Both the position numbers and the translations under genes were made by a program. From positions 1-54,300 of IMG/VR virus record IMGVR_UViG_3300005290_000037: a DNA stretch of 54,300 nucleotides; one strand, given 5' to 3'. Below the pieces are notes generated by a model. It was not told where the DNA came from. It searched no databases and saw only the letters and a program-made list of their open reading frames with translations. Below, one piece after another: positions 5,519-50,829 of the stretch. The DNA is from a virus. Numbering within the stretch: the stretch's first letter is position 1; each line of letters opens with the position of its first letter.

Positions 5519-7510
5519 ATGCTCCAGAAGGCGTATTCGCTCGTCACCGTCAAGGGGTTTGACCCCCAGAAGCGGACGTTTTCGGGCATCGCCACCTCCC
5601 CAGTTGCGGATCGCGTCGGCGACACCATCGACTCGAAGGGCATCAAATACAAAAACCCGCTGCCGCTCCTGCTGTATCACGACAGCAAAAAGCCGGTCGG
5701 TGAGGCGAAGTTCTCCCGATTCACGGGTGACGGCACGCCGTTCGATGCGCGCATTTCGTCGATTGACCGGCCCGGCATTGTGAAGGACCGGCTCGATGAA
5801 GCGATCGACTCCCTGAGCGCCGATCCGCCGCTGATTCGTGGTGTGAGTATCGGGTTCATGCCGCTGGAGTCGCCGGTCTACAACAAAGACACTGGCGGGT
5901 TCCACTACCCCAGTATCGAAGTGCACGAACTGAGCATGGTCGTTGTCCCGGCCCACCAGGACGCGACGATTACCACGCTCAAAGCGCTTGACGTGGACCA
6001 GCCCGCGCTCGGGCCAGACGTCACCGCTCCCAAACCTGCCGGCGTTTCGGCCTCATCGCGCACCGGAGTACGGTTGCGCACGGAACGCCCCATGGCCAAG
6101 AAAAGTTACGCCGACATGATTGCCGAGTGTATTGCGACGCGAAAGGAGCATACCGACCGTATCGACGCGCTTTTGCTAAAGCAAAACGACACCGGCCTGA
6201 CGATGGATCCGCAAGATGCGGAGGATCACGACGAACTCGCGGGAAAGGTGGAAGCGATCGATGCCCAGCTTGTGCGCTTGCGCGCGGCTGAAGCGCGCGA
6301 GAAGGCCGAAGCAGCTCAGGTGCGTCCGAGTGGTGGGTTGGAAGTTCGTCACGGTGCGCAGGTCAGCGTCACCGATCCAGTCAAGCAACTCGGGAAGGGC
6401 ATCATGTTCGCCCGCTACGCGATGTGCATGGGCATGTCCCGCGGCAATCCCTACGAAGCCAAACAGCTCGCGGTCGACAACTACGGTGATGGCACCGCGC
6501 CCATTCTGGCCAAGATGATCGACTGGCAAACCAAAGGCGCGGTCGGTGCGGCGAACACGCAGACCGCAGGGTGGGCCTCGGAGCTCGTCCCCTACACCCT
6601 GATGGACGACTTCATCGAATTTCTCCGACCGGGCACGCTGGTCGGCAAGTTCGGCACCACGCAGAATGGCGTGCAAATTCCGTCCTTGCGTCGGGTGCCG
6701 TTCAACACCAGGGTGTCTGGGTTCTCTGCCGGCCTGACGGCCAACTGGGTGGGAGAAGGGCTCCCGATTCTGCTCAGTAAGGCGACCAGCTTCACGACTT
6801 CGCTCTCGTGGGCGAAGGTGGCGGCGCTCACGGTGCTGACCAAGGAAGAAATTCGATTCAGCAATCCGAGCGCCGAAGCCAAAGTCCGCGACGAGATCGC
6901 GCGCTGCATGATCGCGAAGCTCGACAAGGACTTCATCGATCCGGCGAAGAGTGCATCGGCGAACGTCTCGCCGGCGTCCATCACCAACCAGACGGTCCCG
7001 ATCCTCACGACGGGCACCACGGCCGCCACGCTGCGGACGGATCTCGCGACCCTGATCGCCACGTTTGCGACGGCGAATCTCTCGCCTGAGGACATCGTGT
7101 TGATCATGAACACGGTCGACGCGCTGAACATCTCGCTGATGATCACGTCACTCGGCAATCCGGTCTTCCCGGGCCTGACGATGCAGGGCGGGAACCTCTT
7201 GGGCTTCCCGGTGATCACGACCACGCAGATGACCTCGATTGGATCGCCCGTCAGCAACATCATCGTCGCGGTCAAGGCCAGCGAAGTGTATCTGGCCGAT
7301 GACGGAGTTGTGACCGTGGATGCGAGCGATCAGGCCAGCGTCGAAATGGTGGACAGCTCGTCACAGACCGGCATCGTCGGCACCGGTGCTTCGCTGGTGT
7401 CGTTCTGGCAGGACGGCCTCGTCGGCCTGAAGGCGACCCGCGAGATTACCTGGAAGATTCGGCGCACTGGCGCGGCGCGCTACATCTACAACTCGGCGTA
7501 CAAGGCCTAA
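5519..7510 (+). CDS. Prohead protease-major capsid protein fusion (HK97 fold)
   Basis: 663 aa. Residues 1-160 are an HK97-type prohead protease, with the catalytic His in LLLYHDSKKPVG and Ser in LIRGVSIGFMP. Residues 190-280 are a charged helical segment suited to a scaffold/delta domain. Residues 290-663 are the HK97-fold capsid, with N-arm, the WASELVPYTLMDDFIEFLRPGTL segment, E-loop, and P- and A-domain strands. Many phages encode these as separate genes. Here one frame covers both, so the polyprotein must self-cleave or the capsid must also start internally. ATG 6089 (MAKKSYADM), preceded by GGA, is a weak candidate for that. Confidence 0.93.
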   Translation: MLQKAYSLVTVKGFDPQKRTFSGIATSPVADRVGDTIDSKGIKYKNPLPLLLYHDSKKPVGEAKFSRFTGDGTPFDARISSIDRPGIVKDRLDEAIDSLSADPPLIRGVSIGFMPLESPVYNKDTGGFHYPSIEVHELSMVVVPAHQDATITTLKALDVDQPALGPDVTAPKPAGVSASSRTGVRLRTERPMAKKSYADMIAECIATRKEHTDRIDALLLKQNDTGLTMDPQDAEDHDELAGKVEAIDAQLVRLRAAEAREKAEAAQVRPSGGLEVRHGAQVSVTDPVKQLGKGIMFARYAMCMGMSRGNPYEAKQLAVDNYGDGTAPILAKMIDWQTKGAVGAANTQTAGWASELVPYTLMDDFIEFLRPGTLVGKFGTTQNGVQIPSLRRVPFNTRVSGFSAGLTANWVGEGLPILLSKATSFTTSLSWAKVAALTVLTKEEIRFSNPSAEAKVRDEIARCMIAKLDKDFIDPAKSASANVSPASITNQTVPILTTGTTAATLRTDLATLIATFATANLSPEDIVLIMNTVDALNISLMITSLGNPVFPGLTMQGGNLLGFPVITTTQMTSIGSPVSNIIVAVKASEVYLADDGVVTVDASDQASVEMVDSSSQTGIVGTGASLVSFWQDGLVGLKATREITWKIRRTGAARYIYNSAYKA

Positions 7511-7808: not shown

Positions 7809-8024
7809 GTGGCCCTCGACAATTTCACCATTCATCGCTATCGCGCCCTGCAGGAATGTCCGCAAGGGCAGCAGCCCGGACAAGTCTTTGAAGCCACGGA
7901 AGACGCAGGCAATATTCTGATTTCCGTGGGCGTGGTCGAACGGGTGCCCGACGATACCCCACTCGGCTTTCCGCGTGAGCGCGGCTCCTACAAACGGCGC
8001 GATCTGGTCGCTGAGAAGCGATGA
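7809..8024 (+). CDS. Small head-region protein, unknown
   Basis: 71 aa, GTG start, overlapping the portal gene by ATGA. Compact alpha/beta sequence (MALDNFTIHRYRALQ ... VGVVERVPDDTPLGF) with a basic C-terminus. Its place between capsid and portal suggests a head-assembly or decoration role. No family is recognised. Confidence 0.6.
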   Translation: MALDNFTIHRYRALQECPQGQQPGQVFEATEDAGNILISVGVVERVPDDTPLGFPRERGSYKRRDLVAEKR

Positions 8025-9397
8025 AGATCCAGATCGGGCGGTTCACGCTCGACACGAAAGGCTCGGCATCGGCAGCGCTCGGTGACGGCATTACGCACAT
8101 TCCGGCCTCAACCGCCGGCTGGTGGCCGGTGATCCGTGAGAGTTTCGCGGGCGCGTGGCAGCGTGGTGTGACGGTCCCGGTGGAAGATGCCCTCGCCCAT
8201 CCGACCTATTGGGCCTGCGTCACGCTGATTGCTGGGTCCATCGCGAAAGTCCGTCCGATGCTGGTCGAAGAACAAGGCGGCATCGAAACAGAAGTCGAGC
8301 GGCAATCACCCTACTCGCCAGTCCTTGAACGGCCCAATCACTACCAGAACCGCATCCAATTCTTCACCTACTGGATGCTCTCGAAGTTGATGCGCGGCAA
8401 TGCGTATGCGTTGAAGGCGCGCGACAGCCGTGGCATCGTCACCGATTTGTATCTACTTGATCCGTTGCGCGTGCGTCCACTGGTCGCGCCGAGTGGAGCG
8501 GTGTACTACGCCTGTCAGCAGGACATTCTGAACGACATTACCGAGGCGTCGATTGTGATTCCGGCGCGCGAAATCATTCACGACATTGGTTTCGCGCCGT
8601 ATCACCCACTGTGTGGCTTTTCGCCGGTCTATGCCTGCGGCTATCCCGCGATTCAAGCCCTGACGATCAACCGCAACGCCTCGAAGTTGTTTAGCAACGG
8701 CTTCCAATTAGGCGGGATTCTGAGCGCGCCTGGTCAAATCAGCGCGGATACCGCCAACCGTCTCGAAAAGTACTGGATGGAGAACTACAGCGGCGCGGAT
8801 AACGCCGGCAAGATTGCGGTCGTCGGCGATGGGATGAAATTCGATCAGCCCACGATGATGTCCGCCGTGGATGCGCAAGTCATCGATCAGTTGAAATGGA
8901 ACGACGAGAAGATTTGTGCGGTGCACCTGATCCCCGGCTACATGGTCGGGGTCGGCCCGTTACCGTCCTATAACAACGTCGACGCCCTCTGGAACCAGTA
9001 CTACGGGTTGTGTCTGCAGTACTACTTCGAATCGCTCGAGCTCTGTCTCACGGAAGGTCTGGAGCTCAAGGACGTCGGCTATGAGGTGGAGTTCGACATC
9101 GCCGAACTCGATCGCATGGATTCCGTACAGCGGATGGAAGTGGCGACCAAGGGCGTCATCGGTGGGGTGTTCAAACCGAATGAGGCGCGCGCCAGATTTA
9201 ATCTCCCGAAAGTCGATGGCGGCGATGCGGTCTACCTCCAGAAGCAGAACTGGCCACTCGAGAAATTGGGCAGCGACAACGTGAAGCCAGGCCAGACGGC
9301 ACCAGCCCCCCAGCAGCCTGCCGTCATGCCTGAGCCTGCGAAGTCGATCGATCAGGACGAACTGCTGTCACTCGTCATGAAACGGTTAGCCGCATGA
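8021..9397 (+). CDS. Portal protein (HK97 family)
   Basis: 458 aa, typical for an HK97-type portal. Such a protein forms the dodecameric ring through which DNA enters and leaves the head. Supporting signatures are AHPTYWACVTLIAGSIAKV near residue 65, a helical stem region around 230-290 (NRNASKLFSNGFQLGGIL), and the late segment with IPGYMVGVGPLPSYNNVDALWNQYY followed by the conserved MDSVQRMEVATKGVIGGVFKPNEAR. A Pro/Ala/Gln-rich linker (about 425-440) precedes the C-terminal helix. It overlaps the next gene by ATGA. Confidence 0.93.
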   Translation: MKIQIGRFTLDTKGSASAALGDGITHIPASTAGWWPVIRESFAGAWQRGVTVPVEDALAHPTYWACVTLIAGSIAKVRPMLVEEQGGIETEVERQSPYSPVLERPNHYQNRIQFFTYWMLSKLMRGNAYALKARDSRGIVTDLYLLDPLRVRPLVAPSGAVYYACQQDILNDITEASIVIPAREIIHDIGFAPYHPLCGFSPVYACGYPAIQALTINRNASKLFSNGFQLGGILSAPGQISADTANRLEKYWMENYSGADNAGKIAVVGDGMKFDQPTMMSAVDAQVIDQLKWNDEKICAVHLIPGYMVGVGPLPSYNNVDALWNQYYGLCLQYYFESLELCLTEGLELKDVGYEVEFDIAELDRMDSVQRMEVATKGVIGGVFKPNEARARFNLPKVDGGDAVYLQKQNWPLEKLGSDNVKPGQTAPAPQQPAVMPEPAKSIDQDELLSLVMKRLAA

Positions 9398-17926: not shown

Positions 17927-18018
17927 TGCACTGGCCGTATCACTACGTCGGCGAACTGCCGCAGGACGTCTATGACGTGCTGGTGCGGATGATCACTGAA
18001 GAACAGAAGAGCGACTGA
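17528..18018 (+). CDS. Tail chaperone frameshift product (gpGT-like)
   Basis: Produced by a -1 shift on A AAA AAG (17872-17878), after which reading continues GAC GAC TGG... to TGA 18016-18018, for about 163 aa. The added 46 residues include LSICKLMHWPYHYVGELPQDVYDVLVRMI, which is protein-like and resembles the second half of tail chaperone fusions. Its stop overlaps the tape-measure start (TGATG). Lambda gpG/gpGT is the precedent: the two forms must be made in a set ratio to load the tape measure. Confidence 0.85.
17872..17878 (+). promoter_or_regulatory. Programmed -1 ribosomal frameshift site
   Basis: A AAA AAG in the zero frame of the chaperone gene, within a run of nine A (17869-17877). 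A AAA AAG is one of the most efficient -1 slippery heptamers known in bacteria. The frame reached is open for 46 codons and stops exactly at the next gene. No strong downstream hairpin was obvious by eye. Confidence 0.85.
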
Positions 18019-21000
18019 TGGCCATCACGGGTAAGTTCCAAGCGGACTTCAGTTCCTTTGTCGCCGAGACACAGAAGGCGACCACTGCGCTCAAAAGCGT
18101 GGAATCGGAAGCTGGGAAAGCCGCCACCGAACTCAACACGATGAGCACGACCGCCACGCGGTCGGTTGGGACGGTTGCGAAAGAACTGGTCCTAGCCCAG
18201 AAGGAAGTTACCGAACTCCAAAAACTGATTCGCCAGAATGCCGACAAGCCAGGCTTTATTGCTGGTCTTGAAGCCGAGCTCGATAGCAACATCCCCAAAA
18301 TTTCTGCGCTCAAGCGCGAACTGTCTGACCTGAAAAAACCGATCGAAGACGTGGCGACGGTCACCAAAACCACGTCCTCTGCCATCAGTGGGTTTGGTGA
18401 ACAGATCGCCAGTATGGCGACGGGGTTTATCACCGCCCAGGCGGCGATCGGTGTGGTGACTGGTGCGTTCCATACCCTCACGGGCTTCGTGGCCGATTCC
18501 GTCAAAGCCTATGCCGAAGCGGAATCCGCGCAAAAGAAACTCACGACGGCGCTGCAAGCCCAGGGCACGTCGACACCGGCCATCATTGCGCAATACGGCG
18601 ATCTGGCCACGCAGTTTCAACATACGACCGCGTTCAGCGATGACCTGATTACCAGCATGGAAGGTCTGCTTGTCCAAGTCGGCAATGTCATGCCGAATGC
18701 GATGCAGGCGGCCTTGAAGGCGTCGACCGATTTGGCGGCGGGTCTCGGGATCGATCTCGAAACGGCCACGACGATTGTGGCCAAAGCCGCGGCGGGGCAT
18801 ACCGAAACGCTCGGGCGGTACGGGATCAAGGTCGATCAAGCGAAGCTGGCGAGTGAAGGGTTTTCGGCGGTGCTGGAGGCGATTAATCGCCAGTTTGGCG
18901 GGCAGGCGGCCGCGCAACTCGATACGTATGCGGGCCGTGTCGAAAACCTGAAAAACCAATGGAACAACCTGCAGGAAGTATTCGGCAAACTCATCGTCAC
19001 CGATCCAGTGCTGAGTGCTGCATTACGCAACCTGAGTGAAGGGATCGGGGCGACCGCAGACAATGCCGGCAAGGCCAATCCGTCGATGGCGCGGTTCATC
19101 GAATTGCTGGGCATCCTGCCAGGGTCGGGCGCGGCCATCGCCTATCTCGAAGGGTTAGCGGCGCAGGCGAATGAGACCGCAGCCGCGTTGGAGCGGTTGA
19201 AGGCGGCGCAACTGTCTCCGGAAGTGTCTCACCTCCAACCGTTCGCGCCTGCCGTCAGCCACGGTCCGGACACTGGCTTTGTCGAAGGCTTGCGGCAAGG
19301 CTCGGACGCGATGGATGAACTCCATGCGGCCTTCAAACGATTCAAAGACGAGAAAGCCGAAGAAGAACTCAAACGCCAGCAGGCCGAATGGAAAGCCTGG
19401 GCAAAGTCAGTCGATGACGCCACCGTGGCGTCCAATCTGGGCGTCTTCACGCTGAATCGGTATCACAAAGAACTCGATGATGTGCGGCCGAGTCTGGATG
19501 CGGTGCGCGACCAATTCGAGAACTGGATTGCACCGCTGGACAGTGTCGAAGTTGGCATCAAGCTGACTTCGGATCAACTGGAAGGGTTGCAACGGGCCGG
19601 ACGCTTCGCCGAAGTCGCGATGGCGTCATTGAATCAGCAACTCCTGAAGTTGCCGAATGTTCATTCGTCGCTCGAAGGCGTCGATACGGCCGTACACAAG
19701 ACTGGTGACGGACTGAATGAACTCGCACGTGGATTCAGTCAGATGGCGCAAGTGTCAGATGGGGCACTCAGTGAGGTGGCACGCACGATCGGCACCGTCA
19801 TTACGGGACTTGATACGGCCATTAAAGCGGTCGGTGCACTCGGCACGGCGAGCCAATCCGGATTCGCCCAGATGGCCTCGAGCGCGCTCTCTGTCATTGC
19901 CGTCATTTACGAGATCGGCACCACGCTTCAGAGCATCATTCCGACGTTTGGCGATTTCGGGAATGTGAAACAGATTAAGAATCTGTTGCAACTGCAGGAC
20001 TATGTCAAATCGCTCGGCCTGACGGCTGACGAATTTAAACAGAAAGTCGAAGAGGCGGGACTGTCGCTGGAGCAACTCTCTCGGGACGTCCATGATCCGA
20101 AAGCGTTCGCCGCGGATCTCGAGATTCTGAAGAAAGGACTCGACGAGGCGAAGCAAAAGGCCGACGCATTGGCGGAGGCCATGCACGCGGGTGGCGCACG
20201 GTCCAATACGGAACTCCAGCACGCCGCCGATCTAGCGCGCGAAGCATTTGAGAAAGCGCTCAAATCAGAAGATTACTCGCAGGCGAATTTAGACAAGCTC
20301 TATCTGTCCTATCAACAGTCGTTAGCGGCATTGCCTGGTCCTGCTGGCGAGGCGGCGCAAGCGTGGCTGAAGGCGCATGACGCAATCGCGGGCACGGCCC
20401 AGGCGATTGATACGGCCTTGCAAAAATTGATTGATCGCCGTGATGCGCTGAATACGGCTATTTCACAAGAGGCACCAGAAGAGCAGATCGGCGTGATCGA
20501 GCAACAAATGCGCACAGAGCGTGACGCGATCGAACAGCAGATCAAGAACGCGCAGAAAGCGGCCGATGCGACGGCGGATGCGCAATCGGATGCGGCCCAC
20601 ATTACCGAAGAGCGGTGGGGCGATACCTCGAAAATCCTGCAAGAGCATTTGGAGGATGCGGGCGATCAGGCCGCCGACCATATCAGGGATGCCTTCGATT
20701 TCACGATTCACATTCCGATCGTGTTCGATGTCCCGGCGCTGCCGAGTTTCCCGCCACTGCCAGTGGTCCCGCAAGCCACTGGCGGCGATTGGCTTGTCAG
20801 AAAACCCACGTTGTTTCTCGCGGGTGAAAAGGGCGCCGAGCGGGCCACGTTTAGCCCTGTTGGGCAATCCTCAGGCACAGGCGGGGGCGATGTGGTGGCC
20901 GAGATCCGCGCCTTGCGCATGGCCATCCTGGCACAACCCACGGTGGTCTCGATCAGTGGCCGAGAGATTATCCGCGCGACCCATTACGAGTATGACCACA

Positions 21001-21050
21001 ACGTCGCAGGGGCGCGCACCGACCTGCAGGAACTGGCGGGGAATACCTAA
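18018..21050 (+). CDS. Tail tape measure protein
   Basis: 1010 aa, the second longest gene here. Long helical, Ala/Gln/Glu/Lys-rich stretches (coiled coil) with a hydrophobic segment near residues 130-165 (FGEQIASMATGFITAQAAIGVVTGAFHTLTGFVADSV) that could cross the host membrane during DNA ejection. Another hydrophobic stretch lies near 590-640. At about 0.15 nm per residue it predicts a tail near 150 nm, a long siphovirus tail. Start and stop are coupled to the neighbours (TGATG, TAATG). Confidence 0.93.
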   Translation: MAITGKFQADFSSFVAETQKATTALKSVESEAGKAATELNTMSTTATRSVGTVAKELVLAQKEVTELQKLIRQNADKPGFIAGLEAELDSNIPKISALKRELSDLKKPIEDVATVTKTTSSAISGFGEQIASMATGFITAQAAIGVVTGAFHTLTGFVADSVKAYAEAESAQKKLTTALQAQGTSTPAIIAQYGDLATQFQHTTAFSDDLITSMEGLLVQVGNVMPNAMQAALKASTDLAAGLGIDLETATTIVAKAAAGHTETLGRYGIKVDQAKLASEGFSAVLEAINRQFGGQAAAQLDTYAGRVENLKNQWNNLQEVFGKLIVTDPVLSAALRNLSEGIGATADNAGKANPSMARFIELLGILPGSGAAIAYLEGLAAQANETAAALERLKAAQLSPEVSHLQPFAPAVSHGPDTGFVEGLRQGSDAMDELHAAFKRFKDEKAEEELKRQQAEWKAWAKSVDDATVASNLGVFTLNRYHKELDDVRPSLDAVRDQFENWIAPLDSVEVGIKLTSDQLEGLQRAGRFAEVAMASLNQQLLKLPNVHSSLEGVDTAVHKTGDGLNELARGFSQMAQVSDGALSEVARTIGTVITGLDTAIKAVGALGTASQSGFAQMASSALSVIAVIYEIGTTLQSIIPTFGDFGNVKQIKNLLQLQDYVKSLGLTADEFKQKVEEAGLSLEQLSRDVHDPKAFAADLEILKKGLDEAKQKADALAEAMHAGGARSNTELQHAADLAREAFEKALKSEDYSQANLDKLYLSYQQSLAALPGPAGEAAQAWLKAHDAIAGTAQAIDTALQKLIDRRDALNTAISQEAPEEQIGVIEQQMRTERDAIEQQIKNAQKAADATADAQSDAAHITEERWGDTSKILQEHLEDAGDQAADHIRDAFDFTIHIPIVFDVPALPSFPPLPVVPQATGGDWLVRKPTLFLAGEKGAERATFSPVGQSSGTGGGDVVAEIRALRMAILAQPTVVSISGREIIRATHYEYDHNVAGARTDLQELAGNT

Positions 21051-33993: not shown

Positions 33994-34244
33994 GCGACAT
34001 CGGCTTCGCGGCTGCCGCCTGCAAATTGGGCCGTGCCATCTGGAAGGCTCGCGTCCGCGCCTATGACCTCTCCTGTATCGACTGGGATGACCTCGACCAC
34101 ACGACGCGGCATCTCTACGTGACTCAGGCCGGCGACATTCTCAGAGCCAACGCACCGATCTCGATGGTCTCGCCCGCGCCGACTCCGTTGTTTGATGCCT
34201 TTGTCGCACAGGCTCGTGCTCAATTTCCGAGGATTGTGAAATGA
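33990..34244 (+). CDS. Small early protein, unknown
   Basis: 84 aa, ATGA overlaps at both ends. Compact sequence (CKLGRAIWKARVRAYDLSCIDWDDLDHTTRHLYVTQAG). It lies directly before the RecT-like gene and may belong to the recombination module. No recognised family. Confidence 0.6.
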   Translation: MSDIGFAAAACKLGRAIWKARVRAYDLSCIDWDDLDHTTRHLYVTQAGDILRANAPISMVSPAPTPLFDAFVAQARAQFPRIVK

Positions 34245-35176
34245 CCCAAGCGTTGCAAGCCGGACCGACGCCGATGGACGCCGCGATTGTCGAGCGTGTC
34301 CTCATTCACGGCGATCTGCGGCAACTCACACCAGCCCAGAAGGTCTCGTATTACAACCGCGTCTGCGAATCGGTGGGCCTGAATCCACTGACGAAGCCAT
34401 TTGAATACATCGTCCTGAACGGGAAAGAGACGCTGTATGCCAAGCGGGACGCCACCGATCAACTCCGCAAGATCCACAACGTCAGCGTCCAAATCGTCGC
34501 GCGGGAAGTGACCGAGGATTGTTATGTGGTCACGGCTCGCGCGACCCTGCCTACCAATCGGCAGGATGAATCGATTGGCGCGGTGCCGATTTCCAACCTT
34601 CGCGGAGAAAACCGCGCAAACGCGATGATGAAGTGCGAGACGAAAGCCAAGCGGCGCGTCACGCTCTCCATTTGTGGCCTTGGGATGTTGGATGAAACCG
34701 AGGTCGATTCGTTAAATCATCAACTGGCGCCGCTGATTGTGACGCCGTTGCCCCCTCCGACGCCCGTTACTGCCGCTCCGACGGTCGCAGGCGTTCAAGT
34801 CCCGCCGACTCAGAGCGGGGGAGATTCTGAGCGTAGGCCGAGCGGGGCCGAAACGGCTGGGGATGCCGCTCCCTCTCCAGCCTCCATCCCGCCAGGCTTT
34901 GAACTGATCGCCGAAGTGCGATCCTCGCGCGCTGGGAGTGTGGGGGAATTAGTCCTGCAATCGGGCGAGTGCCATCTGATTTACAAGGCGCAATTAAAAA
35001 CGCTGGCTGAAGAGTGCTGCCAATTGCGGATTCCGGTGCAGTTGGATCTCAAGAAATCAGGTAGTGGGAACTTCTACTGCACCGGCATTCATAAATTGCC
35101 ACCGCCGATCACAGATACAGAGCTCGACGCGCAAGCGGCCAAAGAATCCGGCGACGGAAAGGATCTGCCGTTTTGA
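34241..35176 (+). CDS. RecT/Red-beta-like single-strand annealing protein
   Basis: 311 aa. The pattern LTPAQKVSYYNRVCESVGLNPLTKPFEYI, then NGKETLYAKRDATDQLRKIHNVS and finally MMKCETKAKRRVTLSICGLGMLDETEVD parallels Red-beta: a GLNP motif, a substrate strand and a final AxxKARR-like helix leading to a D/E-rich end. Residues 170-225 are a disordered Pro/Thr/Ala linker, and a second C-terminal domain (225-300) is beta-rich, longer than usual for the family. It would anneal ssDNA during phage recombination. Naming rests on pattern, not alignment. Confidence 0.65.
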   Translation: MTQALQAGPTPMDAAIVERVLIHGDLRQLTPAQKVSYYNRVCESVGLNPLTKPFEYIVLNGKETLYAKRDATDQLRKIHNVSVQIVAREVTEDCYVVTARATLPTNRQDESIGAVPISNLRGENRANAMMKCETKAKRRVTLSICGLGMLDETEVDSLNHQLAPLIVTPLPPPTPVTAAPTVAGVQVPPTQSGGDSERRPSGAETAGDAAPSPASIPPGFELIAEVRSSRAGSVGELVLQSGECHLIYKAQLKTLAEECCQLRIPVQLDLKKSGSGNFYCTGIHKLPPPITDTELDAQAAKESGDGKDLPF

Positions 35177-44931: not shown

Positions 44932-46221
44932 GTGAGTCGGAAGCATTATCACCTCGTGACCCTCGAGCAAATTATGAGCCGTGGACGCCGGAAACCGAAG
45001 CCCACACCAGAGCCACCCCCACCCCCACCCCTGCCAACGCCTACGCCTCCGGTCGACACGTCCTATGGTACGATCCTTGTGCCGCCATTTGATGGGACGG
45101 AAATCCTGATCGCGGCTGGTGCCAACATCCAGTCTGCGATTGATGCCGCTCCCAGTGGGACGCGGTTTCGCCTCCAGGCTGGGATTCATCCGATCCTAAG
45201 CGCGAAAGTCCCAAAGAACGGGACCGTGCTGATCGGCGAATACGGCGCGATTCTGGACGGGACGGGCTGGACGTCCCTCGACACCACCGCGGCGGCCTTT
45301 CGGGCGCATAACGAAGGCATCAACGACGTCACGATCAGCAACCTCGAGATCCGCAACATGCCGCAACAGGGGATTCACGCCTGCGGCAATCAATGCACGC
45401 CGAATAACACCGGCTGGATCATCGACCACTGTTACATCCACCACAACCGCTTTGCGGTGCAGACCGGCAGCAACGCGATCATCCGGTACAACCGACTCAC
45501 GGATAACGCCGCGCCCAGCGGGACGTCCGGCGCCTACAACATTGGCTTCGCGGACAATATCGAAGTCCTCCATAACGAGATTGCCCGGAATGGGGCTGAG
45601 ACGAAATTCGGGGATTGCACGCGGATTTGGTTCCACGACAACTGGGTGTATGCCCAGACGTATAACGGCACCTGGCTGGATGGCTGTGACGACACCGGCG
45701 CGGACGATGCCCACTATTCGGTCATCGAAAATAACGTCTACGAAGACATTCCAATCTTCTCGGTGTTTATCGAGATCAGCCGGTATGTGAAGGTCCGCAA
45801 CAACACCATTCGGCGCTCAGGGTGGGGCGGCGTGCAGGTGGGGACCGCGCATCACGTGCTCGTCGAGGGCAATTCCATCATCACGCCGGCGGGCGGCGCC
45901 TACGCCATTCAGTTGCGGGTCGATTGTGGCCGGCAGGACTTCGGGGCACTCGACTACGACCTGAAAAACAACACCATCCAAAACAACACGCTGGTGGGGG
46001 ACTATTCCGGGGCGATTACGGCCCTGGTCATTGATGAATCGCTGACGACCTGTGATCCGTCGTACCTCACCAACGCGAAGCAGAATAACTGGATCGGCAA
46101 TCACTATGACGTGTCCAATCCAGCGGCGGCGATCTTTGCGTGGGGCGTGAATCCCTCGCCGTCGAAGACGTTCGCGGAGTGGCAGGCGCTCGGGCAGGAT
46201 CTCGCGGGCTCGATCGCATGA
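44932..46221 (+). CDS. Right-handed beta-helix tail spike (pectate-lyase-like)
   Basis: 429 aa; GTG 44932, or ATG 44974 as the alternative start. A Pro-rich linker (PTPEPPPPPPLPTPTPPV) joins a short N-terminus to a long beta-helix whose rungs are visible as repeated N-D-V-T-I-S-N and I-I-R-Y-N-R-L/E-V-L-H-N-E-I turns (about residues 75-380). Beta-helix enzymes of this kind cleave or bind capsular and cell-surface polysaccharides. No signal peptide, so it fits a virion spike, in contrast to the gene at 28993. Confidence 0.8.
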   Translation: MSRKHYHLVTLEQIMSRGRRKPKPTPEPPPPPPLPTPTPPVDTSYGTILVPPFDGTEILIAAGANIQSAIDAAPSGTRFRLQAGIHPILSAKVPKNGTVLIGEYGAILDGTGWTSLDTTAAAFRAHNEGINDVTISNLEIRNMPQQGIHACGNQCTPNNTGWIIDHCYIHHNRFAVQTGSNAIIRYNRLTDNAAPSGTSGAYNIGFADNIEVLHNEIARNGAETKFGDCTRIWFHDNWVYAQTYNGTWLDGCDDTGADDAHYSVIENNVYEDIPIFSVFIEISRYVKVRNNTIRRSGWGGVQVGTAHHVLVEGNSIITPAGGAYAIQLRVDCGRQDFGALDYDLKNNTIQNNTLVGDYSGAITALVIDESLTTCDPSYLTNAKQNNWIGNHYDVSNPAAAIFAWGVNPSPSKTFAEWQALGQDLAGSIA

Positions 46222-47178: not shown

Positions 47179-50100
47179 GTGGCCTACGATCCGCACGCCA
47201 ACCTCGCGATTACCACTGTCGCTGTCGCGCCCTCGCCAGCGTTGTCTGGGACGTCGCTAACGCTCACGGCGGATGCAGGCGGCGCGCTCTTTCCGGCACC
47301 AGGTGCGCAAGGCTACAACGTCACGGTGTGGGCGACGGGCACGCAGCCTATTCCCACGAACGCTGAGATCGTCCGCGTGACCGGCAAAGTCGGGAATGTC
47401 CTCACCATTGTTCGGACCCAGGAAGGCACCTCCGCGCGCGCGATCGTCGTCGGGGATCTGATTGCCGTCACGATCACCGCCAAAGTCGTCACGGACGTCG
47501 AAGCGGCCATCACGGCCAATACGAATTTCGCCGGCACGAATGGCGCGATCACGGGCGGGTCGATCACGGTCAATACGTCCGGCGTGTCCGTGAATTTGCC
47601 GGCCTACCTCACGACGGCGGCGCTCTCGAATCATTCCCACGGCAATCCGACACTGAACCTCACAAACCTGTCAGGGACGACCGCGAGTAATAGCGCTGGC
47701 TTGACGCTGTCTCTGAGCGCAGCCGCGCAATCGGCCCAGACGGGCATTTCAGGGATTGCTGGCTCGAATACCACGTATTCCTCTGGGACGGTGCAATTCA
47801 CCGGCGTCGGCGGTGGCGTGACAGTCAGTTCCAACACGGGCCAGCGGATTGACATCTCCGTGGCTGCGCCAGTGGCGCAAACCGTCCAGACGCAGAATCT
47901 GATTGCGGCCAGTCTCTCCGGCAATACGGCCGGCGTCCTGGCCTTGGTGTCCTCAGGGACGGCCATTTTCGCCGGTGGGAATAACATCACCCTGAGCCAG
48001 AACGGGCAATCGATCACGATCAGTGGCGCGAACGCGGGTGGCGCGCAAACTGCGATCAGTGGCGTGGTGGTCTCGAACACCACGTATACCTCCGGCACGA
48101 TCAGTTTTTCCAACGCCGGGAACATCACGATCAGCTCGAGTGTGAACGGCGCGACGCAATACGTCGTGCTCAGTGGCCACGCGTCGCAAACGAATCAAAG
48201 CGCGATCAAGGGCTTCGGCGTCAGTAATACCGGACAGACGGCCGGCAACACCGGGATTTCGAGTGGCATTGATTGGGTGTTGGCGGGCTCTGGGTCGATC
48301 ACGCTCTCGCAGAGCACGGCGGGTGGTGGGCCGAATACGGTCTGGATGCAGCATCCTGCATGGATCACGACGGCGACTCAGTCTTCGATGACCGTGTCGG
48401 ATGCGGCGACGTCAGGCACGCTCGCGCGTCTGGCCTTCACGAATCTGAATGGCGTGACGCTGTCGCTGTCCACTGGCGCGGCTGGTTCGCACACGATCGT
48501 CGGGTCACACAACGCGATTACCTCACAGTCGACGCAATTTCTCGCCTTGACACTGGGTGGGAATACGGCTGGGACCACGACGTTCCACGCCACCAACAAC
48601 GCCAGCTTGTTCTTCAACGGCGGGAACAACGTCACGTTGAGCGGGAACGGTTCCACGGTCACGATCTCCGCAGCGAATCAAACGGTTCAGACCCAGAACC
48701 TCATCGCGGCGAGTCTGTCTGGTAACACCGCTGGGGTGCTCGCGCTTGTGTCGTCAGGCACGATGATTTTTGCGGGCGGCAACAACATTACGCTCTCGCA
48801 GAACGGCCAGTCAGTCACGATTTCCGGGGCGAATGCAGGGGGGGCCCAGACAGCCATCTCCGGGATCGTGGTGTCAGACACGACCTATACGTCTGGGACG
48901 GTGTCTTTCAGCAACCAGGCAAACGTCACGATCGGATCATCGGCCAACGGGGCGACGCAGTACATCAGATTGTCGGTCGCGCCCGTTACGAACTCCAGTC
49001 TGACGATGCAGGCGGGGGCCTCCACGCTCTCGTCGGTGTCGCGGGTGGCGTTCGTGGACTCGAATGGCGTGTCCTTTGGGGCGTCCACGTCGAACAACGG
49101 CAGCATTTCCATCACGGCGACGGTCAAGACGGACTATCTCACCACGCAATCGACCCAATTCCTGGCGCTCACCCTTGGTGGCAATACCGCCGGCACGACG
49201 ACGTTTCATGCGACGAACAATGCCAGCCTGTTTTTCAATGGTGGCAACAACATCACGCTGTCCGGCAACGGGTCGACGGTTACGATTTCGGCTGCAAATC
49301 AGACGAACCAAAGCGCGATCAAAGCCTTTGGTGTGAGCAATACCGGGCAAACGGCCGGAAATACAGGTGTCTCAACGGGCATTGATTGGGTACTCGCGGG
49401 GTCGCAGTCGATTACCCTGTCGCAAAGCACGGCGGTCGGTGGGCCGAATACGGTCTGGATGCAGCATCCGGCGTGGCTGACCACTGCGATGGCCTCCAAC
49501 CGAGGCTCCGACTTCGTGGCAGCCACGGCAGCCTTTGCGGGCACGAATGCGTCCGGCACGATCGCTTCGGATGGCATTTCGGTCTCGGTCGCGGCACCTG
49601 GGGCGGCGGCGGAGAACAACTGGATCAATCTGCTCGGGGCGAATACGGCGGGGAATACCAGCGCGTCGGGGTCCACGATCGGTTGGAGTGGCGGCAACGG
49701 CGTGACGTTGTCGGGCACGAACAATTCTCAGGTCGTCATCTCCGTAAACACCTACAGCACGGTCGGCACGGCGACGACGGCGTACTCAGTGGCTTCGGCG
49801 AACTCGGTCGGCACCGTCACGCGGTGGGCGGCTGAAGATCATGCCCATGCGGGTGTTGGGGCGATCGGCATTTCAACATCTGGCAATACCGCTGGCACCA
49901 CCGGTAGCGTCTTGGGCACCTATTGGTTCCAGGGCGGCAATAACATCACGGTGAGCCAGATCACGTCCAACAACGGCAGTCACACGCTGGTCCTGTCTGG
50001 TGCGGCGGGTGGCGGATCGCCGCAGTCGTACTACCTGAATATCGACAATTACGCCGGCATGGTGACCGGAGCGAGCGCGATCACGCAGACCAGTGGATCT

Positions 50101-50829
50101 TCCATCTTTGTGCAGCCGTTCATTATCAGAAACGACATGAGCGCGAGTTATCTGCGTCTGCTCGCGTCGTTTAATGATTCCGCGGTGGGGACGGCTGGCA
50201 CGCCGGTGGTCAATTCCACGTTTTCCGTTGAACGCTACACAACGATCGGCGTCGTGCTCTACAGCCAGGGCACTGGGGCAAGCAGCCGGTCGCTGCAATA
50301 TGTGACGTCGAGTTCGGCCGGGCTCACGGGGCAAACCGTCTGTGGCGCCGGTGCGCAGTCCTCACGCTATACGGTCACGGTCGCCAAGACCTACCCCGCG
50401 ACCGGCGCGACGAACAATAATTACACCAGCAGTTACGCGGTATCGTCGGCCTCGATCGTCGTGAGTAGTAACAGCAATACGCTGTTCACGGGGCCACGGT
50501 TTCTGGATATTCCGTGGGCGCGATCCTTCAGTGCCGGCAATTATTGGTTTGGGATTGGCGCGTCCACGAGTTCGACGAGTAACAGCGGCAATATTAGTTT
50601 TGCTGGGACCGCCGCCATGCCAGTCTCGATTCATGGCATCTCGCAGATTGCCTTGTCGATGGGCCTCTTGGGTGCGGTGACGTCGGCCTCCGATCATCAG
50701 ATGCAACTCGCGCAAGGCGTGTGGACGACGAATTCTTCGATTTGGTCAACCAGTTCGATCGCGATCAGCCAGGTGAGCCAAGTGGTCTCGAATCCTCAAC
50801 TTCCGTTCCAACTGATTCGGCAGGCCTGA
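47179..50829 (+). CDS. Long repetitive tail fibre
   Basis: 1216 aa, the longest gene here. Low-complexity Ser/Thr/Gly/Asn beta-repeat structure over about residues 130-950, with three longer modules each occurring twice: A (47881-48114 and 48682-48915), B (about 48188-48365 and 49309-49478) and C (about 48526-48682 and 49147-49304). An N-terminal attachment domain (about 1-110) and a C-terminal knob (950-1216) bracket them. The stalk probably forms a trimeric beta fibre. Modules A and C are repeated in protein but recoded in DNA. Confidence 0.85.
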   Translation: MAYDPHANLAITTVAVAPSPALSGTSLTLTADAGGALFPAPGAQGYNVTVWATGTQPIPTNAEIVRVTGKVGNVLTIVRTQEGTSARAIVVGDLIAVTITAKVVTDVEAAITANTNFAGTNGAITGGSITVNTSGVSVNLPAYLTTAALSNHSHGNPTLNLTNLSGTTASNSAGLTLSLSAAAQSAQTGISGIAGSNTTYSSGTVQFTGVGGGVTVSSNTGQRIDISVAAPVAQTVQTQNLIAASLSGNTAGVLALVSSGTAIFAGGNNITLSQNGQSITISGANAGGAQTAISGVVVSNTTYTSGTISFSNAGNITISSSVNGATQYVVLSGHASQTNQSAIKGFGVSNTGQTAGNTGISSGIDWVLAGSGSITLSQSTAGGGPNTVWMQHPAWITTATQSSMTVSDAATSGTLARLAFTNLNGVTLSLSTGAAGSHTIVGSHNAITSQSTQFLALTLGGNTAGTTTFHATNNASLFFNGGNNVTLSGNGSTVTISAANQTVQTQNLIAASLSGNTAGVLALVSSGTMIFAGGNNITLSQNGQSVTISGANAGGAQTAISGIVVSDTTYTSGTVSFSNQANVTIGSSANGATQYIRLSVAPVTNSSLTMQAGASTLSSVSRVAFVDSNGVSFGASTSNNGSISITATVKTDYLTTQSTQFLALTLGGNTAGTTTFHATNNASLFFNGGNNITLSGNGSTVTISAANQTNQSAIKAFGVSNTGQTAGNTGVSTGIDWVLAGSQSITLSQSTAVGGPNTVWMQHPAWLTTAMASNRGSDFVAATAAFAGTNASGTIASDGISVSVAAPGAAAENNWINLLGANTAGNTSASGSTIGWSGGNGVTLSGTNNSQVVISVNTYSTVGTATTAYSVASANSVGTVTRWAAEDHAHAGVGAIGISTSGNTAGTTGSVLGTYWFQGGNNITVSQITSNNGSHTLVLSGAAGGGSPQSYYLNIDNYAGMVTGASAITQTSGSSIFVQPFIIRNDMSASYLRLLASFNDSAVGTAGTPVVNSTFSVERYTTIGVVLYSQGTGASSRSLQYVTSSSAGLTGQTVCGAGAQSSRYTVTVAKTYPATGATNNNYTSSYAVSSASIVVSSNSNTLFTGPRFLDIPWARSFSAGNYWFGIGASTSSTSNSGNISFAGTAAMPVSIHGISQIALSMGLLGAVTSASDHQMQLAQGVWTTNSSIWSTSSIAISQVSQVVSNPQLPFQLIRQA
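47881..48114 (+). repeat. Fibre module A, copy 1
   Basis: 78 codons sharing 73 identical residues with copy 2 at 48682-48915. In the first 27 codons all residues are identical, yet 20 of the 27 codons differ at synonymous positions. Confidence 0.9.
48682..48915 (+). repeat. Fibre module A, copy 2
   Basis: Second copy of the 78-residue module (five substitutions against copy 1), heavily recoded. Confidence 0.9.

Follow-up and report, generated by a model that had tools for sequence, protein, structure and literature searches.

Silently saturated repeats in a modular tail-fibre-like protein probably reflect an old, constrained pool of shaft modules in uncultured phages

Introduction

Genes that carry closely similar protein segments and dissimilar DNA can be compared with two described systems. 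The first is that of mosaic receptor-binding proteins and tail fibres of phages, in a survey of which amino-acid identities of 70% or 90% were taken as recently emerged mosaicism (PMC10684548). The second is polyubiquitin, where near-identical protein repeats show many silent differences, purifying selection has been offered as the explanation, and concerted and birth-and-death evolution have been debated (PMC10457151; Nei et al. 2000, cited there). The ubiquitin repeats of one species are usually closer to each other at silent sites than to those of other species (PMC10457151).

Here, we analyse a tail-fibre-like gene that resembles both systems and differs from each. It is encoded in the IMG/VR record IMGVR_UViG_3300005290_000037, whose whole 54,300 bases are hereafter called the window; the ends of the record are linear or of unknown class, which leaves room for a longer genome of the phage. 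As in mosaic fibres, otherwise unrelated proteins share homologous fragments (at 50-98% amino-acid identity), and a conserved shaft is joined to a variable C-terminal part. Unlike in the mosaic fibres, the same modules recur several times in one gene, and modules that are 90-98% identical are saturated at silent sites and hence old, which differs from the reading made in that survey. The likeness to polyubiquitin lies in the near-identical protein repeats, their many silent differences and the role of purifying selection. In contrast with polyubiquitin, silent closeness within a genome seems weak when the whole family is considered and is not seen in two of the window's repeats (modules A and C below), and the repeats are exchanged between genomes.

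Results

Three repeated modules in a tail-fibre-like gene

The window encodes TerL (positions 767-2458), a capsid protein fused to a protease (5519-7510), a portal protein (8021-9397) and a tape-measure protein (18018-21050). The forward-strand ORF at 47179-50829, with a GTG start, encodes a modular tail-fibre-like protein of 1216 amino acids, a designation drawn from the ORF, its module layout and its relatives in phage contigs. It is a chain of modules of about 45-60 amino acids, made of units of about 50 residues and of few types, with 'QT-Q' linkers between them and a C-terminal head at the end. No Pfam, PHROG or NCBIfam family matched this ORF below 0.001, and the records of related phages annotate their counterparts as 'tail fiber' or as hypothetical. 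The labels 'fibre' and 'shaft' derive from the composition and length of the protein, its repeats, its place behind the structural genes and the way in which one related record is annotated. Directly upstream (44932-46221) lies a gene for a right-handed beta-helix protein, possibly a tailspike or depolymerase.

Three modules of the fibre, all read on the forward strand, occur twice, and chance cannot explain these protein repeats. The first-pass annotation of this DNA had described module A as a repeat of 78 amino acids, and its counts were reproduced: 47881-48114 and 48682-48915 have 73 of 78 residues identical at a DNA identity of 69%, and in the first 27 codons all residues match while 20 codons are silently different. 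The repeat is longer than first described, since copy 1, composed of two units of about 50 amino acids (47878-48162), and copy 2 (48679-48963) share 85 of 95 residues. Module C had been said to behave in the same way, and it does: its copies (48526-48684 and 49147-49305) are identical at 52 of 53 residues and differ in 34 of 52 codons. In module B (48187-48375 and 49300-49488), 57 of 63 residues are identical and 26 of 53 codons differ. The identical DNA stretch previously noticed in this module is present, with a length of 32 bp (48325-48356 in copy 1 and 49438-49469 in copy 2) instead of 31, and lies over the low-degeneracy residues GGPNTVWMQHP. Another module, at 48385-48519, is present in a single copy; its nearest relative is in the phage contig L118 (98% identity in the best window of 45 amino acids).

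Silent sites are saturated under strong protein constraint

We computed the expected number of silent differences by drawing codons at random according to their usage in the fibre itself, considering degenerate codons at identical residues. Module A shows silent differences in 59 of 85 codons, against 50.1 ± 4.4 expected at random, while the values are 34 against 29.8 ± 3.5 for module C and 26 against 30.9 ± 3.5 for module B. Taken together, 119 of the 190 comparable codons differ, where random draws give 110.8 ± 6.6 (about +1.2 standard deviations). Silent differences are thus at the level of random draws, which means that silent change in the three modules is saturated, without a significant excess beyond saturation. 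For A and C, saturation leaves the NG86 estimate of dS without a defined value, while dS is 1.34 for B; dN is 0.149 for A, 0.035 for C and 0.066 for B. The full count therefore bears out the earlier proposal that synonymous divergence is at saturation under strong protein constraint.

It had also been argued that neutral drift without gene conversion would have altered residues as well. This overlooks purifying selection: between whole TerL genes of related phages, the ratio of observed to expected silent differences (silent ratio) is close to saturation at 85-90% amino-acid identity (0.88), and is 0.73 at 90-95% and 0.45 at 95-98%. Given these values, modules A and B, at 89-90% identity, behave as any conserved gene of a phage ordinarily would. 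Module C (98% over 53 amino acids) and the fibre modules with at least 95% identity (ratio 0.96-0.98) are beyond the TerL range. Intragenic fibre segments of 40-60 amino acids with at least 95% identity have a silent ratio of 0.98, and TerL has no such segment. Since the fibre segments were picked for high identity, we applied the same choice to TerL, which provided only two segments of 40-100 amino acids at 90% identity or more, with ratios of 0.77 and 0.70.

The constraint is not uniform along the protein. The shaft modules are 80-98% identical, whereas the C-terminal heads (49957-50826 in the window) have 19-31% identity between fibres. Structure models of a module (pLDDT 62) and of the head (pLDDT 45) are low-confidence monomers, too weak to interpret. 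The head had no match in the PDB at an E-value of 0.001 (best 0.05); the central fibre of mycobacteriophage Douge is in its top four matches, a weak hint only.

The modules belong to a pool shared across phages

A search with the whole fibre at first gave no relatives, but searches made module by module succeeded and found relatives in 29 viral contigs for A, in 4 for B and in 5 for C. The resulting sample consists of 38 fibre ORFs of related phage contigs, which were recruited through the very modules under study. Every relative is of metagenomic origin, and the phage collection contained no isolate phage with such a fibre, only uncultured 'Manatee Spring' records. We scanned these 38 ORFs in windows of 45 amino acids and counted those having a relative of 70% identity or more (1138 windows). 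The best relative was in another phage in 704 of them and in the same fibre in 397, with 37 ties. The fibre of our window shares fragments at 50% amino-acid identity or more with otherwise unrelated fibres and is a patchwork: its nearest relative switches every 50-100 residues, from L085 to L094, L109, L086, L090/L083, L114, L118, L116 and L105 in turn, at amino-acid identities of up to 98%. Protein similarity is not accompanied by DNA similarity. The match to L118, when taken over a wider stretch of 75 residues, has 67 identical residues and differs in 49 of 66 codons, and fewer than or equal to 2% of DNA 25-mers are shared between the fibres of different contigs for all pairs except L121/L122. 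Internal repeats of many other fibres show the same pattern: L099 has 168 amino acids at 93% identity, with silent differences of 66%, and in L109 a stretch of 49 residues is fully identical, with silent differences of 63%.

Conserved DNA in the linkers as crossover points was ruled out, because codon choice in the 'QTVQTQ' linkers shows the same randomness as that within the modules (0.99 versus 0.97). Two loci have a pair of fibre-type ORFs each, L087 (4017 and 7292) and L110 (4104 and 7880). The same modules are also present in contigs of metagenome-assembled genomes labelled Azambacteria and Saccharibacteria (L113, 4645-7191; L112, 5785-7296; L111, 1394-2989). The N-terminus of the L113 protein looks like that of a secreted protein and is joined by the motif 'NILSYQGRLTD', which we take to resemble cell-surface proteins of these bacteria; the fibre modules come next, together with a head motif of similar kind.

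Scarcity of young copies and origin of individual copies

Young copies are rare: only 5 of the 563 best matches of fibres to themselves have a silent ratio below 0.5. One possible reason is the ascertainment caused by short-read assembly, in which near-identical repeats break the contigs and only diverged ones are seen whole. We found one clean case, in L117 (1-366), where the fibre is cut by the contig end right at a repeat, of which the terminal 98 bases are exact and 108 bp are 99% identical; this end is an assembly break at a young duplication. The other contigs that end inside fibres (L090, L092, L095 and L098) do not show such a terminal repeat (0 of 4). Hence, the assembly loss of young duplicates is real and hides some of them. 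It is doubtful as an account of the whole pattern, since copies of intermediate age should assemble easily and are nevertheless scarce, and since it leaves the conservation of the protein unexplained.

The copies could also differ because a distant phage, with codon habits of its own, recently donated one copy of each module. The earlier suggestion that a copy came from a relative holds for parts of the fibre. Copy 2 of module B is 94% identical to L117 and 93% to L116 and L114, against 90% to copy 1. It has residues in common with L116 and L117 that copy 1 lacks and groups with these two in the tree (SH-aLRT 88; p-AU of 0.07 for the two copies as a single clade). The second half of copy 1 of module A is likewise nearest to L114. 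The suggestion fails in that a donor with an exact DNA match was not found for any copy, and none of the fibres found shares appreciable 25-mers with that of the window. Third-position GC is similar between copies (A 0.79/0.76, B 0.73/0.68, C 0.81/0.70; whole fibre 0.75), and the first half of module A groups within the phage, copy 1 being sister to copy 2 (support 95). The nearest protein to each copy of C is the other copy (98% versus 87% elsewhere). We thus regard recent import as unlikely. The closeness of the C copies to each other also implies that pure exchange with a pool is not the whole explanation.

Codon choice and exact repeats

The first-pass annotation had suggested selection against DNA repeats as one cause. 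In high-identity segments, the silent ratio is 0.937 within genes (65 pairs) and 0.938 between phages (405 pairs), where pairs within one fibre are not independent; for anchored type-1 modules, the intragenic value of 0.900 (95% interval 0.836-0.959) is slightly below the between-phage value of 0.979. Neither comparison gives a sign of selection for recoding, and the pattern is not confined to the fibre of the window. We then shuffled synonymous codons within each fibre and counted exact internal repeats. When all fibres are pooled, there are 227 exact internal 24-mer repeats against 23 ± 10 after shuffling, and the fibre of the window has 9 against 0.6 expected, an enrichment instead of a depletion. 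The excess comes from few fibres, mainly L108 and L090, and roughly one fibre in two has no more repeats than expected at random. Over 30 shuffles, the longest exact repeat had a median of 17 bp and a maximum of 32 bp, the latter being the length of the repeat observed in module B. Among complete fibres, L108 (4548-8405) has the youngest internal duplications, with a longest exact repeat of 50 bp and 77 repeated 30-mer pairs, and L090 retains an exact repeat of 42 bp. We rejected active codon avoidance on the strength of the codon-shuffle test and of the comparison of intragenic with between-phage copies.

The same proposal had assumed that the phage encodes its own RecT-like annealer. Profiles of RecT (PF03837) and ERF (PF04404) had no match in the window, so that this annealer stays putative. 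The ORF at 34241-35176 encodes a protein that other phages conserve (41-51% overall), which carries the motif ANAMMKCETKAKRRVTLSICGLGMLDETE and has no family match; judged by eye, it possibly resembles a single-strand annealing protein.

Homology-dependent deletion might still filter the growth of shafts: DNA-similar copies would be lost at once, shafts would lengthen only by modules that had been recoded beforehand, and long repetitive shafts would owe their stability to the very pool of protein-identical modules with different silent sites. We find this quite improbable. Selection against DNA repeats proper, where recombination of the phage or host deletes identical copies and recoded or already different ones persist, would fit the saturation of nearly all intragenic pairs and the excess of 1.9-2.0 standard deviations over random codon choice in module A, but is very unlikely in view of the enrichment of exact repeats, the unexceptional divergence of intragenic copies, the small joint excess of the three modules, the exact duplicates kept in L117, L108 and L090, and the absence of RecT and ERF families from the window.

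Discussion

We think it probable that the silently diverged repeats derive from an old and highly constrained pool of shaft modules, built by duplication and exchange and coupled to a variable C-terminal head. The tail-fibre-like shaft would be a chain of modules of about 45-60 amino acids from a pool common to many phages. Each module would be under very strong purifying selection, probably imposed by packing in a repetitive, beta-rich shaft. The copies within one gene would stem partly from duplications long ago and partly from exchange between phages, and would have been separate for long, or already different on arrival, such that silent sites became fully randomised while residues remained fixed. 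Silent divergence would then be passive drift at saturation, without active selection. The head would vary freely between fibres and is likely to be the receptor-facing part. The rarity of young intragenic copies counts against the shared pool, as they are fewer than steady duplication might give, and assembly loss explains part of this deficit. The mechanism is most likely an ordinary one, purifying selection with old duplication and exchange, and it is the degree of conservation and its extent over the whole family that stand out.

These results have implications for the dating of fibre mosaicism. Modules that are more than 90% identical in amino acids and yet silently saturated make amino-acid identity a poor clock for the exchange of fibres, so that fragments with 90-98% identity do not imply recent exchange. 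Silent-site divergence should replace amino-acid identity for this purpose, or serve to check it. The modules that are identical in protein and different in DNA are a natural set for tests of repeat stability. For the phages themselves, they delineate a family of fibres of uncultured phages. At silent saturation its shaft modules exceed TerL in conservation, and they are shared, with DNA recoded by drift, among copies of one gene as well as between phages.
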